Shown piece by piece: positions 3,531 to 21,215 of a stretch of 24,806 nt of DNA. Origin of the DNA: a virus; the IMG/VR virus record IMGVR_UViG_3300009409_000041, positions 1-24,806 of that record. One strand, given 5' to 3'. A program made the translations under genes and the position numbers. The notes below the pieces were generated by a model. It saw nothing but the letters and a program-made list of their open reading frames with translations, did not search any database and was not told the origin of the DNA. Positions within the stretch are counted from its first letter, which is position 1. Every line of letters begins with the position of its first letter.

Positions 3531-3550
3531 TTACTCAAATCAAGTAACAA
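3528..3550 (+). repeat. Inverted repeat between promoter and start codon
   Basis: TTGTTACT (3528-3535) and AGTAACAA (3543-3550) are perfect inverted copies around a seven-base spacer. The left arm covers the last bases of the -7 box and the right arm ends on the A of the start codon. No T-run follows, so it is not a terminator. If transcription starts 5-7 bases after the box, the left arm is mostly not in the message, which favours a DNA operator over an RNA hairpin. Confidence 0.5.
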
Positions 3551-3774
3551 TGGATATTCGAAAAATAAGTGTAGGTCCGGACTATAAGTCAGGTGCTATG
3601 CATTACATAAAAGGACAGCAAGTTCTTAACGGCTCTCATGAGATACACCTCATAGCACAGAGCGAAGATGGTACAATAAAGATATGGTTAGAGAATGATG
3701 ACGCAGAGATACTTCTATGGAAGTCTTTCACATCTACAATGCCTGTATCAATAGAGTATAACATCTACTTCTAG
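3550..3774 (+). CDS. Conserved phage protein of unknown function (74 aa)
   Basis: The product begins MDIRKISVGPDYKSGAMHYI and ends SFTSTMPVSIEYNIYF. I remember closely similar small proteins (KISxGPDYK, AMHYIxGQxV, HxIHLI, KIWxE, LLWKxF, MPVSIEYNI) near the packaging genes of Bacteroidetes phages, always without a function. It is predicted beta-rich, soluble and compact. It is the first gene of the packaging unit. The stop codon TAG 3772-3774 is followed in frame by TGA, and its last base is the first base of the next gene's GTG start. Confidence 0.65.
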   Translation: MDIRKISVGPDYKSGAMHYIKGQQVLNGSHEIHLIAQSEDGTIKIWLENDDAEILLWKSFTSTMPVSIEYNIYF

Positions 3775-4343
3775 TGAGGTCACCCTATGACTTCATAGTA
3801 AAACCTGTTGATGGTAGACGCTACGCTAACTCTAAGGAGATAGGTGGTGTTGAGATATACACTAGTGTGTCAGACGAAGACCACACATCAGCTAATAGAT
3901 TAGGTGAGGTTATAGCTTTACCTATAGGATACGAAGGACCTATTGTAATAGGAGATACTCTCTTAGTACATCACAACGTATTCAAGTTCTACAATGATAT
4001 GCAGGGTGTACAAAAGAGTGGACGTAGCTACTTCAGAGATGGCTTATTCTTTATAGACAGCGTACAGTATTACATGTATCACAATGGTACAGAGTGGAAT
4101 ACGGTAGGTGACTACAGCTTCATCACACCTATACAGAGAGTAGAGGCAGAAGATGAGATGTTCAAGTACGCAGGAGAAGAACCTTTAGTAGGGTTGATTA
4201 AGTATCCTAGTGGTAACATGAAGTCATTAGGAATTAAAGCAGGAGATAAGATTACATACTATCCGGGAATGGAGTATGAGTTCAAAGTAGAGGAGGAGAA
4301 GATATACAGGCTTATGGATAAGCACATTACAATGGTACTATGA
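3774..4343 (+). CDS. GroES-like (Cpn10-fold) protein, candidate phage co-chaperonin
   Basis: The 189-residue protein begins at GTG 3774, overlapping the previous stop (TAGTG). The next in-frame Met is near residue 76, after the key motifs, so GTG is the credible start. YDFIVKPV (5-12) matches the first strand of GroES (DRVIVKP). GGVEI (24-28) occupies the place of the GGIVL GroEL-binding loop. LGEVIALP (43-50) and PIVIGDTLLVHHNVFKFY (56-73) match the GEVxAVG and hxVGDxVhF strands. Residues about 137-189 (VGLIKYP, GIKAGDKITYYP, EEKIYRLMDKHITMVL) look like a second, diverged barrel. T4 gp31 sets the precedent of a phage GroES replacement needed to fold capsid protein. Its place just before terminase, portal and capsid genes fits. 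The alternative is a structural beta-barrel with no chaperonin role. Confidence 0.55.
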   Translation: MRSPYDFIVKPVDGRRYANSKEIGGVEIYTSVSDEDHTSANRLGEVIALPIGYEGPIVIGDTLLVHHNVFKFYNDMQGVQKSGRSYFRDGLFFIDSVQYYMYHNGTEWNTVGDYSFITPIQRVEAEDEMFKYAGEEPLVGLIKYPSGNMKSLGIKAGDKITYYPGMEYEFKVEEEKIYRLMDKHITMVL

Positions 4344-4633
4344 CTAACGAAGAATTAAGACTAGAGCTTATAGCTGCAGGTAAGCAAGCTGTCAAGCATC
4401 TAATAAAAGTAGCTAAGAAAGACATCCTTAAGGACGTTGACATGGAAGATGACTTAGCAGCAGACAAAATGAAGAATGCAGCAGCAGCAAAGAAGCTAGC
4501 TATATTCGATGCCTTTGAAATCCTAGCAAGGGTAGAGCAAGAGAAAATTAATCTAGAGCAGTCTAAAGGAGCAGGCTCTCGCGTAGATACTAAACAAGGT
4601 TTTGCAGAAAGAAGAAGCAACAAGCCAAAGTAA
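4340..4633 (+). CDS. Helical protein before TerL, possible small terminase subunit
   Basis: This 97-residue protein is almost entirely helical and charged. It contains DLAADKMKNAAAAKKLAIFD (about 39-58) followed by AFEILARVEQEKINLEQ, and a basic tail. Position (overlapping the GroES-like gene by ATGA and ending 7 bases before TerL), size and helical character fit a small terminase subunit, which recognises the phage DNA and feeds it to TerL. I see no clear helix-turn-helix. I remember similar NAAAAKKLAxxDAFEIL proteins before TerL in other Bacteroidetes phages, but not a proven role. Confidence 0.5.
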   Translation: MTNEELRLELIAAGKQAVKHLIKVAKKDILKDVDMEDDLAADKMKNAAAAKKLAIFDAFEILARVEQEKINLEQSKGAGSRVDTKQGFAERRSNKPK

Positions 4634-4640
4634 TCAGCTT

Positions 4641-6857
4641 ATGGTTGTAGTGGATAGCACTATACCAAAGCAGATATACACGCGCAAGAACACAGCTAAG
4701 TCATGGGACTATGGTTACAACTCTGAGTATGATATAGTTATCATATCCAAGGATGGAACTCTAGGTAACGTGGTAGAGATATCAGGGTTGCGTATAGGAT
4801 TACCTAAGACTCCTGAATCCGTATGGGCTAGGGATACTGATACTACTAAGCAGTATTGGGAGAGACAAGAACTTCCTAAGGACATACGTCGTATACAGAC
4901 TATATTCCAATGGAACGAGATGCCTACAGACTTTAAGGAAAGATTCGTTGATTACATTGAGGGTGAGTTTGATAGGAGAGAAGGAGGACATTGGTTTATG
5001 AACAATGGTATACCTACATACATGACAGGTTCACAGTACATGTATCTTCAGTGGAGTAGTATTGACGTAGGTTTCGCGGACTTCCGTGAGGCTAATAGAA
5101 TCTTCTTTATATTTTGGGAAGCATGTAAGGCTGACAAGCGTAGCTTTGGAATGAACTACTTAAAGATTCGTCGTTCAGGATTCTCATTCATGAGTAGTGC
5201 TGAGTGTGTTAATCAAGGTACGTTAGCTAGTGATTCAAGAGTAGGTATACTATCTAAGACAGGTAGTGATGCTAAGAAGATGTTTACAGATAAGGTTGTA
5301 CCTATATCTATGAAGCTACCATTCTTCTTCAAGCCTGTTCAAGATGGTATGGATAGACCTAAGATGGAGTTAGCCTACCGTGTTCCTGCTAAGAAGCTGA
5401 CTAAGAACAACATGCATGAGGTTGAGGATGAGCAGATGATGGGGCTAGATACTACTATTGATTGGAAGAACACAGACGATAACTCTTACGATGGTGAGAA
5501 GCTATTGCTTATGGTTCATGATGAGAGTGGTAAGTGGATTAAGCCTAACAATATTCTAAACAATTGGCGAGTAACTAAGACTTGTTTACGTTTAGGTAGT
5601 AAAATTATCGGTAAGTGTATGATGGGTTCTACCTGTAACGCACTAGCTAAAGGTGGTGATAACTTCAAGAAGATATACGAAGACTCTAGAACTAACAAAC
5701 GTAACGGTAACGGTCAGACTAAGAGTGGTATGTATTCTATATTCATTCCTATGGAGTGGAACATGGAAGGGTTCATTGATATGTACGGTCAACCTGTATT
5801 CAATACTCCTGACAAACCTTTACTAGGTGTTGATGGGGAGATGATTGAGCAAGGTGCTGTAGACTATTGGCAAGCTGAGGTTGATTCACTTAAGGATGAT
5901 GCTGATGCACTGAACGAATTCTATCGTCAGTTCCCACGTACAGAGTCACATGCTTTCCGTGATGAGAGTAAGGATTCTATCTTTAACTTAACTAAGATAT
6001 ACCAACAGGTAGACTTCAATGATTCAGTAGAGAAAGCTCACTATGTAACACAAGGTTCTTTCTCTTGGGAGAATGGGATAAGGGATACTAAGGTTATCTT
6101 CTCTCCTAATAAAGCAGGTAGATTCTATGTGTCATGGATTCCTGAGAAAGGATTACAGAATAACGTACAGACTAGACAAGGTATTAGATATCCGGGTAAC
6201 GAACACCTAGGTGCATTCGGTTGTGACTCGTATGATATATCAGGTACTGTAGGAGGTAGAGGTTCTAATGGTGCATTCCATGGCTTAACTAAGTTCAACA
6301 TGGATAACGCTCCTAGTAACGAGTTCTTCTTAGAGTATGTAGCTAGACCACAGACAGCAGAGATATTCTTTGAGGATATCCTTATGGCCTGTGTATTCTA
6401 CGGCATGCCTTTGCTTTGTGAGAACAATAAGCCTAGACTATTATACCACATGAAGAACAGAGGTTACCGTGGCTATAGTATGAATCGTCCCGATAAAGTC
6501 TATAACAAGCTCTCTAAGACAGAGAAAGAGCTTGGGGGTATACCTAACTCGTCCGAAGATATTAAGCAGGCTCACGCCTCTGCAATTGAGTCTTACATAG
6601 AAAAGTACATAGGGTACGATACCACAGGTTCGTTCAGAGCTTCTGATGAGATAGGCACTATGCCTTTCGAACGTACACTGAATGATTGGTCGAAGTTCGA
6701 TATTAACAATCGAACAAAGTTCGATGCCTCCATCTCTTCGGGATTAGCTATCATGGCTACTCAGAAACATCTTTATCAGCCCGTAAAAAAAGCTGAGAAA
6801 ATAAGTGTTACCTTTGCTAGGTACAAAAACACAGGTTCAAGAAGCGAAATATATTAG
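4641..6857 (+). CDS. terL: Terminase large subunit (packaging ATPase and nuclease)
   Basis: TerL pumps phage DNA through the portal into the prohead and cuts it. I take ATG 4641, 7 bases after the preceding stop, giving 738 residues; a TTG at 4602 lies inside the previous gene. The ATPase half shows a degenerate Walker A at about 174-183 (LKIRRSGFSF), Walker B with catalytic acid at 288-295 (LLLMVHDE), and a coupling motif MMGSTCN near 327-333. The nuclease half shows the RNase-H-like first acid in GCDSYD (527-532), CENNKPR (593-599), and a late acidic site in SSEDIKQAH (637-645). The P-loop lysine is replaced by Phe. The TAG stop (6855-6857) touches the portal ATG in the same frame. Confidence 0.88.
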   Translation: MVVVDSTIPKQIYTRKNTAKSWDYGYNSEYDIVIISKDGTLGNVVEISGLRIGLPKTPESVWARDTDTTKQYWERQELPKDIRRIQTIFQWNEMPTDFKERFVDYIEGEFDRREGGHWFMNNGIPTYMTGSQYMYLQWSSIDVGFADFREANRIFFIFWEACKADKRSFGMNYLKIRRSGFSFMSSAECVNQGTLASDSRVGILSKTGSDAKKMFTDKVVPISMKLPFFFKPVQDGMDRPKMELAYRVPAKKLTKNNMHEVEDEQMMGLDTTIDWKNTDDNSYDGEKLLLMVHDESGKWIKPNNILNNWRVTKTCLRLGSKIIGKCMMGSTCNALAKGGDNFKKIYEDSRTNKRNGNGQTKSGMYSIFIPMEWNMEGFIDMYGQPVFNTPDKPLLGVDGEMIEQGAVDYWQAEVDSLKDDADALNEFYRQFPRTESHAFRDESKDSIFNLTKIYQQVDFNDSVEKAHYVTQGSFSWENGIRDTKVIFSPNKAGRFYVSWIPEKGLQNNVQTRQGIRYPGNEHLGAFGCDSYDISGTVGGRGSNGAFHGLTKFNMDNAPSNEFFLEYVARPQTAEIFFEDILMACVFYGMPLLCENNKPRLLYHMKNRGYRGYSMNRPDKVYNKLSKTEKELGGIPNSSEDIKQAHASAIESYIEKYIGYDTTGSFRASDEIGTMPFERTLNDWSKFDINNRTKFDASISSGLAIMATQKHLYQPVKKAEKISVTFARYKNTGSRSEIY

Positions 6858-9293
6858 ATGAAAGACGTAAAAGTTAATATCACATCGACTAGTTTTCCTA
6901 GTCAATTAGCAACAGATGCAGAAAAAGCAACTGACGAGTTTGGTCTAAAGGTCGGACAGGCTATTCAATACGAATGGTTCAGGAAAGACGGTGGAGGTAG
7001 TCGTTTCTATAATCAGTGGGATGAGTTTCATAAGTTACGTTTGTATGCAAGAGGCGAACAGTCTACTGCAAAGTACAAGCAAGAGATGGCTGTGGACGGA
7101 GACCTAAGTTACTTAAACTTAGATTGGACTCCTGTACCTATTCTTCCTAAGTTTGTTGATATCGTTGTCAACGGAATGTCTAACAGGCTGTTCTCTCCTA
7201 AAGCATACGCTCAAGACGCAATGTCTCAGAGCAAGAGAACTAAGCATCAAGACATGATAGAAGGGCAGATGGTAGCTAAGGATGTTTTATCTGCAGTAGC
7301 AGACGGAACAGGAATGAATCCTTTTTCCATGCCTGTAAACGAACTACCTCAGAATGATGAGGAGATGCAATTACATATGCAGCTTAACTATAAGCCTGCT
7401 ATCGAGATTGCAGAGGAAGCAGCCATCTCTACAATATTTGCTGAGAACAAGTATGATGACATCCGTAAGCGTATGGATTATGACATCACTACACTCGGTA
7501 TAGGTATCGCTCGTCATGACTTCCTACCGGGAGCAGGCATCGATATCAACTACGTTGACCCTGCTACTGTAGTATACAGTTACACGGAAGACCCACACTT
7601 TGAAGATTGTTTCTATTGGGGAGAAGTTAAGACTGTTCCTTTAACAGAGATAAGAAAGATTGACCCGAACATATCTACAGCAGAGCTAGAGACTATTCAG
7701 AGTTCAGGACAAGCTTGGCACAACTTCCATACCACTGCTCAGAAGTTTGACGGTGATTCATTTGAAAGAGATACAGTATCTCTTATGTACTTCAACTACA
7801 AGACTACTAAGAAGTTTGTATACAAGAAGAAGAAATTAGAAAACGGTGGTAGCCGTATTATAGAGAAGGATGAGACGTTTGACCCTCCACAAGAAATGCT
7901 AGACGAAGGTAACTTCGAGCGTATGGAGAAGGTTATAGACGTATGGTACTCAGGCGTAATGGTTCTAGGTACAAATATTGTATTGAAGTGGGCTCTTGAA
8001 GAAAACATGGTTCGTCCTAAGTCTTCATCACAGCATGCTATCCCTAACTTCGTAGCCGTTGCGCCACGTATGTACAAGGGAAGGATTGAATCTCTAGTTA
8101 GAAGGATGATACCATTCGCTGACTCGATTCAAATCACACATCTTAAGTTACAGCAAGTTATCAATCGTGTAGTTCCTGATGGAGTTTACATTGATGCAGA
8201 TGGTCTCAATGAAGTAGACCTAGGTAACGGTGCAGCGTACAGTCCTCAGGATGCTCTTAACCTATACTTCCAAACGGGTAGTGTAATAGGTAGAAGCTCT
8301 ACACAGGACGGAGAGTTTAACCACGGTAAGACTCCTATCACGCAACTTACATCATCTTCGGGGGCTAGTAAGTCACAGATGCTCGTCAGCAATTACAACC
8401 ACTACCTTGGTATGATAAGGTCAGTCACCGGACTGAACGAAGCACGAGACGGTTCTACCCCCGATTCAAACTCTCTAGTAGGAGTGCAGAAGTTAGCAGC
8501 ATTAAACTCTAACACAGCTACACGCCACATACTAGACGGAAGTCTATACCTATACAAGACTTTAGCAGAAGCTATCTCTTACAGAGTGGCAGACATACTA
8601 GAGTACGCAGACTTCGCAGACGATTTCGCAAATAAGATTGGTAAGTACAATGTCTCTATACTTAGAGAGATGTCTGACCTATACATATATGACTTCGGTA
8701 TCTTTATTGAAGTAGCACCGGATGAGGAGCAGAAGCAAATGCTTGAGCAGAATATTCAGATGGCTCTATCTAAGAGTAGTATTAACTTAGAGGACGCTAT
8801 TGATATCCGTGAGCTTAAGAGTATCAAGCTAGGTAACCAATTACTAAAGGTTAAGCGTAAAGCTAAAGCAGACAAGGAGCAGGAGCAAGCTATGCAGCAG
8901 CAAGCTATGCAAGCTAAGATGACGCAGGAGAGTAACGCACAGATGGCTCAGGCTTCTATGGCACAGACTCAAGCTACTCTAGATTCCAAGATACAAATCG
9001 TACAGATGGAAGCACAGCTAGCTATGCAGAAGACTCAGACAGAAGTAGCAGCTAAGATGCAGCTTATGGAGAAAGAGTTCTCATACCAAATGCAGCTAGC
9101 AGGTATGGCTAATGAAGGTCAGAATGCTCGTAACAGTGAGAAAGAAAAGGCTAAAGACTCACGTCTAGATAAGGCTTCTTCTCAGCAATCTAAACTGATA
9201 GACCAAAGAAAGAATAACCTTCCACCTACTTCATTCGAATCGAATGAGGATAGCTTAGATGGTTTTGACTTATCGGAGTTTGACCCTCGATAA
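6858..9293 (+). CDS. Portal protein
   Basis: The portal is the dodecameric ring through which DNA enters and leaves the head. The 811 residues are typical of large podovirus and crAss-related portals. Evidence includes position right after TerL, the segment PILPKFVDIVVNGMSNRLF (about 94-112) that resembles the portal clip/stem entry, the central fold (RKRMDYDITTLGIGIARHDF, then INYVDPATVVYSY) and a long helical stretch near 560-640. From about 660 to 760 the chain is a Gln/Met/Ala-rich coiled coil (repeated AMQQQAMQ, MAQASMAQTQ, MQLMEKEF), likely the barrel that projects into the head. The tail is Ser/Asp/Glu-rich. There is no gap to TerL. Confidence 0.85.
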   Translation: MKDVKVNITSTSFPSQLATDAEKATDEFGLKVGQAIQYEWFRKDGGGSRFYNQWDEFHKLRLYARGEQSTAKYKQEMAVDGDLSYLNLDWTPVPILPKFVDIVVNGMSNRLFSPKAYAQDAMSQSKRTKHQDMIEGQMVAKDVLSAVADGTGMNPFSMPVNELPQNDEEMQLHMQLNYKPAIEIAEEAAISTIFAENKYDDIRKRMDYDITTLGIGIARHDFLPGAGIDINYVDPATVVYSYTEDPHFEDCFYWGEVKTVPLTEIRKIDPNISTAELETIQSSGQAWHNFHTTAQKFDGDSFERDTVSLMYFNYKTTKKFVYKKKKLENGGSRIIEKDETFDPPQEMLDEGNFERMEKVIDVWYSGVMVLGTNIVLKWALEENMVRPKSSSQHAIPNFVAVAPRMYKGRIESLVRRMIPFADSIQITHLKLQQVINRVVPDGVYIDADGLNEVDLGNGAAYSPQDALNLYFQTGSVIGRSSTQDGEFNHGKTPITQLTSSSGASKSQMLVSNYNHYLGMIRSVTGLNEARDGSTPDSNSLVGVQKLAALNSNTATRHILDGSLYLYKTLAEAISYRVADILEYADFADDFANKIGKYNVSILREMSDLYIYDFGIFIEVAPDEEQKQMLEQNIQMALSKSSINLEDAIDIRELKSIKLGNQLLKVKRKAKADKEQEQAMQQQAMQAKMTQESNAQMAQASMAQTQATLDSKIQIVQMEAQLAMQKTQTEVAAKMQLMEKEFSYQMQLAGMANEGQNARNSEKEKAKDSRLDKASSQQSKLIDQRKNNLPPTSFESNEDSLDGFDLSEFDPR

Positions 9294-20802: not shown

Positions 20803-20810
20803 TATATTTG
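20803..20810 (+). promoter_or_regulatory. Bacteroidetes-type -7 element, TATATTTG, for the GNAT and internal-protein unit
   Basis: TATATTTG begins seven bases after the preceding stop, with AATTGTTG before it and three bases (AGT) between it and the ATG at 20814. It is the closest promoter-to-start distance in the window. No terminator separates it from the tail unit. Confidence 0.6.
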
Positions 20811-20813
20811 AGT

Positions 20814-21215
20814 ATGCACACAAGACAGCTTAATACTACTGACTACGAGGATTTACTTTGTGGTTGGTGGAGTGACCACGGTTTCACAGCACCTAACCGA
20901 GATTTTCTTCCTGATAATGCTACAAGTGGAATGATAGCATACGACGGACGTACACCTGTAGTTGCAGGATTCTTGTACGAGACAAACTCTGCTACCGCTT
21001 GGGTGGAGTGGGTGATATCTAATAAGGAATACAGAGGTAAAGAAAGGAAGGCTCTAATACAGCTGTTGCTTACTGACTTAGAAGACTTGGCAAGAGACAA
21101 GGGATTTAGGTTTATCTTTGCAAGTAATAACAATAGCTTTTTGATTGAGCATTTCAAGAGTATAGGATACTCTGTTGGACAAACGAATAGCACGGAACTA
21201 ATAAAAGTAATATAA
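20814..21215 (+). CDS. GNAT-fold acetyltransferase-like protein
   Basis: I take ATG 20814 (133 residues); an alternative TTG start at 20808 lies inside the promoter box. The order DYEDLLCGWWSDHGFTAPNR, FLPDN, GMIAYDGRTPVVAGFLYETN, AWVEWVISNKEYRGKERK, LLLTDLEDLARDKGFRFIFA, LIEHFKSIGY follows a GNAT domain: two-strand sheet, motif A strand-loop-helix, and a final x-x-Y/F-G-Y-like strand. The acetyl-CoA loop (normally R/Q-x-x-G-x-G/A) is degenerate here, reading YRGKERKAL. Similar proteins with a WW-D-x-GF/W-TAP-x-x-FLPD start are frequent between structural genes of aquatic phages. Whether it acetylates a host target, a virion protein, or is only a scaffold is unknown. Confidence 0.65.
   Translation: MHTRQLNTTDYEDLLCGWWSDHGFTAPNRDFLPDNATSGMIAYDGRTPVVAGFLYETNSATAWVEWVISNKEYRGKERKALIQLLLTDLEDLARDKGFRFIFASNNNSFLIEHFKSIGYSVGQTNSTELIKVI

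Follow-up and report, generated by a model that had tools for sequence, protein, structure and literature searches.

The co-chaperonin gene and its neighborhood

The window, i.e., the whole stretch of 24,806 nucleotides of viral DNA analyzed here, carries at 3774..4343 (+) an ORF of 189 amino acids with a GTG start, which was annotated, on the basis of PHROG 13932, AlphaFold and Foldseek, as a predicted tandem (two-barrel) co-chaperonin gene. Directly 5' of it lies a small ORF of 74 amino acids without a known family (3550..3774, +), whose stop codon overlaps the GTG by one base; a homolog occupied the same adjacent position in 88 of 104 loci, and this ORF is possibly a functional partner of the tandem protein. 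The interval before the gene for the terminase large subunit (TerL; 4602..6857, +; phrog_6681, E 1.4e-173) is occupied by another small ORF from the ORF list, which encodes 97 amino acids and had no significant family match (4340..4633, +). TTG is the first listed start of TerL, and its actual start could be further in. A gene for a P22-like portal protein follows (6858..9293, +; phrog_6547, E 3e-140; Pfam P22_portal, 1.1e-08), so that the place ahead of TerL and portal noticed by the sequence-only reading was borne out. The GTG start proposed there also appeared credible, since relatives have their start at this position too, open with the (M/V)(R/K)SP motif found here and in several cases likewise use GTG. 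Elsewhere in the window, amid the structural gene cluster, we observed a candidate GNAT-type acetyltransferase (20808..21215, +) with a sub-threshold Pfam match.

In a profile search, the product of 3774..4343 fell into a phage family that was already defined, PHROG 13932 ('co-chaperonin GroES'; E 1.2e-18, residues 1-183 on positions 1-193 of the 200 in the profile). Relatives were found in at least 122 stretches from IMG/VR, and a same-strand TerL gene was located downstream of the tandem gene in all 111 loci with enough sequence. Together with the family match, these observations indicate that the ORF is a real gene and not a chance reading frame. Annotated relatives were found in Flavobacterium elemo phages, the Cellulophaga phages phi38:1, phi40:1, Calle and phi18:3, and the uncultured Caudoviricetes genome MW202828; their identity to the window protein was about 22-48%, with MW202828 at 48%. 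The phage represented by the window is a marine, flavobacterial-type phage, and the gene is an ordinary one for such phages. The PHROG 13932 phages (elemo, phi38:1, Calle and phi18:3) share with it both a full-length match and the position before TerL and portal, and the two-barrel structure goes unmentioned in their records. Annotation as a GroES relative was already known: many of the records carry the label co-chaperonin GroES or chaperonin cpn10, and chaperonin cpn10 was listed by Bartlau et al. among the proteins common to Pervagoviridae (PMC8776804). The earlier suggestion that a tandem form would be unusual therefore does not hold within the family, in which this form is standard and always adjoins TerL. 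We also considered a bacterial chromosomal family, which was rejected since the genome-scan matches were confined to metagenome-assembled bins that bear contradictory names, read here as binned phage contigs. One relative of the tandem gene (L152; CP070801.1, near 873 kb) was observed within a 1.05-Mb contig labelled Aenigmatarchaeota, and this copy is probably a phage piece joined in by assembly.

Two predicted Cpn10 barrels

The GroES landmarks DFIVKP, GGVEI, GEVIALP and IGDTLLV, which the sequence-only reading had recognized in the first half, were all found in the ORF. In an alignment of 35 sequences, the GroES motif order (F-I-x-x-P, loop, strand ending near P, GD and closing hairpin) appeared twice, dividing the protein into a first Cpn10 barrel of residues 1-112 (3774..4109, +) and a second of residues 113-189 (4110..4340, +). 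Profiles of residues 1-112 and 110-189 were each compared with a single-barrel GroES profile built from E. coli and seven phage proteins, and gave scores of 31.3 and 46.5, respectively, against best scores of 19.1 and 17.1 in a column-shuffle control (300 shuffles per half). The second barrel, which had merely been guessed before, is the clearer Cpn10 of the two, with a profile match at E 8e-9. The Pfam Cpn10 domain (PF00166) also matched the second half of the window protein, but at 13.8 bits this match was below the gathering cut-off of 21.1, which counts against the interpretation given below. The same cut-off was passed by the second barrel of the phi18:3, phi19:3, phi38:1 and G014 relatives, and in phi18:3, phi19:3 and L110-type relatives the match was almost full length, mobile loop included. 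When the profiles of the N and C halves were aligned with each other, only 10 columns were covered (probability about 4%); thus, the protein appears to hold two divergent Cpn10 domains, and a recent duplication of one barrel was not supported. Within the first barrel, the block HHNVFKFYNDMQG..KSG (residues 66-85; 3969..4028, +) showed little or no variation among close relatives (alignments A1 and A2), and its conservation exceeds what would be expected for a lid. A single-sequence search of solved structures gave only chance PDZ matches, whereas the alignment-profile search of the PDB found GroES, Cpn10 and Cpn20.

Structure prediction, which had been proposed as a check against Cpn10 structures, yielded two predicted Cpn10 folds. 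The AlphaFold model of the full protein (pLDDT 84, pTM 0.79) contained two barrels with low-confidence loops at both mobile-loop positions, and its top PDB matches in Foldseek were 7ekq_Q and 7ekq_R (E 9e-5 and 2e-4; TMq 0.53-0.57, aligned full length). The name of chain 7ekq_R is 'Cpn20 co-chaperonin subunit', that of chain 7ekq_P 'Chaperonin 11'. Single Cpn10s, including GroES and gp31, reached a TMq of about 0.3, roughly half of the above value, which suggests that both domains superpose at once on 7ekq_Q and 7ekq_R, so that the modelled arrangement would resemble neighboring barrels of a lid ring, although with high rmsd values. In the lid ring, the two barrels would most likely sit next to each other, like those of chloroplast Cpn20. 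We also considered a two-storey lid with stacked barrels, but the full-length superposition of the predicted model on Cpn20/23 favors the side-by-side arrangement. When barrel 1 was modelled alone (pLDDT 83), its 16 best PDB matches were all Cpn10, led by 8wuw_a (probability 1.00, TMq 0.50), with modest E-values (best 6e-3). As the half profiles, AlphaFold and Foldseek concur on the second half being another barrel, the product is very probably a phage co-chaperonin in which two Cpn10 barrels are fused. In BFVD, a 304-amino-acid viral protein (A0A516L046) matched the two-barrel model with a TMq of 0.73 and may contain an additional barrel or domain.

Analysis of the loops revealed a difference between the barrels. 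In barrel 1, the mobile-loop region (residues 12-40; 3807..3893, +) corresponds in the alignment to the mobile loop of E. coli GroES and holds G-G-V-E-I at residues 24-28, and pLDDT drops to 68 at residues 31-40. In barrel 2, the loop at the corresponding position (residues 121-137; 4134..4184, +) is short and predicted to be disordered (pLDDT below 50 at residues 124-133), and in the alignment of the window lineage it is without a clear G-hydrophobic GroEL-anchor motif. The mobile loop put forward in support of a co-chaperonin was thus present, by alignment, in the first barrel but is not clear in the second barrel of this lineage, which, like the sub-threshold Pfam match, counts against our preferred explanation. 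The barrel 2 loop is longer and GroES-like in Pervagoviridae and Pachyviridae relatives (phi38:1, phi18:3 and L110). According to the alignments, the roof hairpin of E. coli GroES is absent from both barrels and also from the phage single-barrel GroES.

The fixed place by TerL and portal (TerL downstream in 111/111 loci) and the high divergence of barrel 1, which nevertheless holds a strictly conserved block, could also point to a structural or assembly protein derived from GroES which has lost its chaperonin role, such as a head-assembly or packaging accessory. However, the mobile-loop motif is kept, genes for GroEL and GroES are present in the same genomes, and only Cpn10 proteins were found at the top of the family-profile and structure searches. 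We regard a loss of the chaperonin role as very improbable.

Partner genes in relatives

The genomes of relatives were searched for GroEL (PF00118 or phage GroEL) and Cpn10 (PF00166), and occurrence was counted in 22 tandem-bearing records of 48 kb or more, several of which are near-identical isolates, so that the counts do not represent independent events. A separate single-barrel GroES was present in 21 of these records; 16 (16/22) had GroEL, single GroES and the tandem gene, whereas in five (phi18:3, phi19:3, two close relatives and G014) single GroES and tandem occurred with no GroEL detected. The remaining record (G009, the contig of L071, 54.7 kb) had the tandem gene with neither single GroES nor GroEL found, despite about 16 kb upstream. 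The single GroES proteins have 83-91 amino acids (one ORF call of 101 has a doubtful start) and normal mobile loops, e.g., KTESGLLLSAQD, and their genes are mostly located beside GroEL and away from the tandem gene adjoining TerL. In the window, neither GroEL nor a second Cpn10 was found, the tandem gene being the sole Cpn10 match of the 24.8-kb fragment, which includes 3.8 kb upstream of this gene. In MW202828, about 8.6 kb separate the tandem gene from the GroEL gene upstream of it; thus, the GroEL and single GroES genes of the window phage may sit just outside the fragment, past its left end.

The phage GroEL retains the ATPase residues D52, D87 and D398, shows the apical changes L234E, L259I, V263A and V264A, and is missing the GGM tail. 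Positions 234, 259, 263 and 264 contact GroES and substrate in E. coli, and, judged from the sequences, their change would fit a dedicated cofactor.

The protein had initially been viewed as a GroES substitute for host GroEL, after the example of T4 gp31. With regard to this example, gp31 is a phage-encoded co-chaperonin without roof loops (PMC6318259), as is the phage tandem, but it has one barrel, works with host GroEL and resembled the tandem protein only at the fold level (1g31_A, TMq 0.30), with no gp31 match in PDB sequence and profile searches using the tandem protein. The comparison thus stands for function and fails for architecture, one barrel versus two. A gp31-like action on host GroEL, in which the tandem protein would replace or mix with host GroES and fold a large phage protein, would agree with the missing roof hairpin, with phi18:3, phi19:3 and relatives (tandem and single GroES, no GroEL detected), and with G009, in which the tandem occurs alone. 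On the other hand, those relatives with long contigs that are nearest to the window have a GroEL of their own, in which the co-chaperonin-contact positions are changed. Since relatives carry their own single GroES and usually their own GroEL, substitution on host GroEL is not the favored reading, and we consider it rather improbable.

A proposed mixed lid and its parallels

Building on what was computed directly, i.e., the two Cpn10-like domains, family membership, the fixed place before TerL and the co-occurrence of partner genes in relatives, we infer ring formation, GroEL binding, a 3+1 stoichiometry and clients as follows. The tandem protein, encoded among head and packaging genes, would be a detachable lid for a GroEL-type chaperonin. 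The working lid would be mixed, with three tandem proteins and one single-barrel GroES giving seven barrels, and in relatives the single subunit would be the phage-encoded one, usually next to phage GroEL. A mixed 3+1 lid seems most likely because GroEL rings have seven sites, whereas tandems supply barrels in pairs. Phage structural or packaging proteins would be enclosed in the chaperonin by this lid; that head and packaging proteins are the clients is suggested by the position of the gene before TerL and portal and by the analogous case of gp31 and gp23, the capsid protein of T4 (PMC6318259). A two-barrel co-chaperonin with its barrels side by side in a mixed 3+1 lid on GroEL is the best explanation, and we consider it fairly probable.

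The occurrence of single GroES, tandem and usually GroEL in relatives suggests that a mixed seven-domain lid is built by the virus, in parallel with the chloroplast Cpn10/Cpn20 pair. In chloroplasts, Cpn10 and Cpn20 assemble into functional hetero-oligomers that contain seven Cpn10 domains (PMC3542282; PMC5780408), and concatamers of GroES and of Cpn20 with 6-8 domains are functional with GroEL in vitro (PMC5780408). The latter result also counts against a mixed lid, as tandem-only lids of six or eight barrels work as well (PMC5780408). Three or four tandem chains could also form a homo-oligomeric lid of six or eight barrels, in the manner of the Cpn20 tetramers reported from Arabidopsis, with single GroES as an alternative lid for another stage or other clients. 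Cpn20 homo-oligomers are functional, and GroEL also works with lids made of six or eight linked GroES domains (PMC5780408); moreover, the location of the single GroES gene with GroEL, distant from the tandem gene on the TerL side, could mean separate expression. However, the near-universal co-occurrence of single and tandem genes, also in phages without GroEL, is more easily explained by joint work, and we regard a tandem-only lid as unlikely. The absence of a single gene from G009 likewise counts against the mixed lid, and host GroES could fill that place.

Among known systems, the chloroplast Cpn20/Cpn21/Cpn23 proteins have two tandem Cpn10 barrels like the phage protein and gave the best full-length structural match. 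Both chloroplast Cpn20 and the phage tandem also occur with a separate single-barrel Cpn10 (in the phages, the 21/22 relative records of 48 kb or more). In contrast, apicoplast and plastid Cpn20 have a mobile loop and a roof in both domains (PMC3542282), whereas the phage tandem has no roof and, in the window lineage, a degenerate second loop. By analogy, the phage tandem would work like a Cpn20, as which it is not filed here, and the two are likely of independent origin.

Virioplankton GroEL/GroES gene pairs were reportedly described by Marine et al. in 2017. Phages with both large and small chaperonin subunits are also known from Maribacter phage Panino and virioplankton chaperonins; for Panino, GroEL and GroES homologs are named, and a second, two-barrel co-chaperonin goes unmentioned in the text searched (PMC11590407). 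Thus, the family and phage GroEL/GroES pairs are already known, and what is new is the set of single GroES and tandem, usually with phage GroEL, in relatives. In the literature searched, whose coverage is incomplete, neither the two-barrel structure nor the combination of single and tandem proteins was found described for phages.

Tandem co-chaperonins have been described in chloroplasts and the apicoplast, and the reason for fused domains and asymmetric lids is debated. A common marine phage family with GroEL, single and two-barrel GroES in a genome of 60-75 kb would offer an independent second case that is small and easily expressed, and its comparison with chloroplasts and the apicoplast would test whether mixed fused/single lids are dedicated to certain clients, for example large capsid or packaging proteins. 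More tentatively, and with somewhat less than even confidence, we propose that the virus independently evolved the chloroplast lid symmetry, placing three two-barrel proteins and one single GroES on a virus GroEL with a re-shaped apical patch, and that only some of the mobile loops would be strong anchors, resulting in an asymmetric grip. Finally, in the phage GroEL of L117, L119-L124 and relatives, the residues corresponding to the inter-ring sites R452 and E461 of E. coli were changed in several members, and the ring number of this GroEL may differ from the usual double ring.
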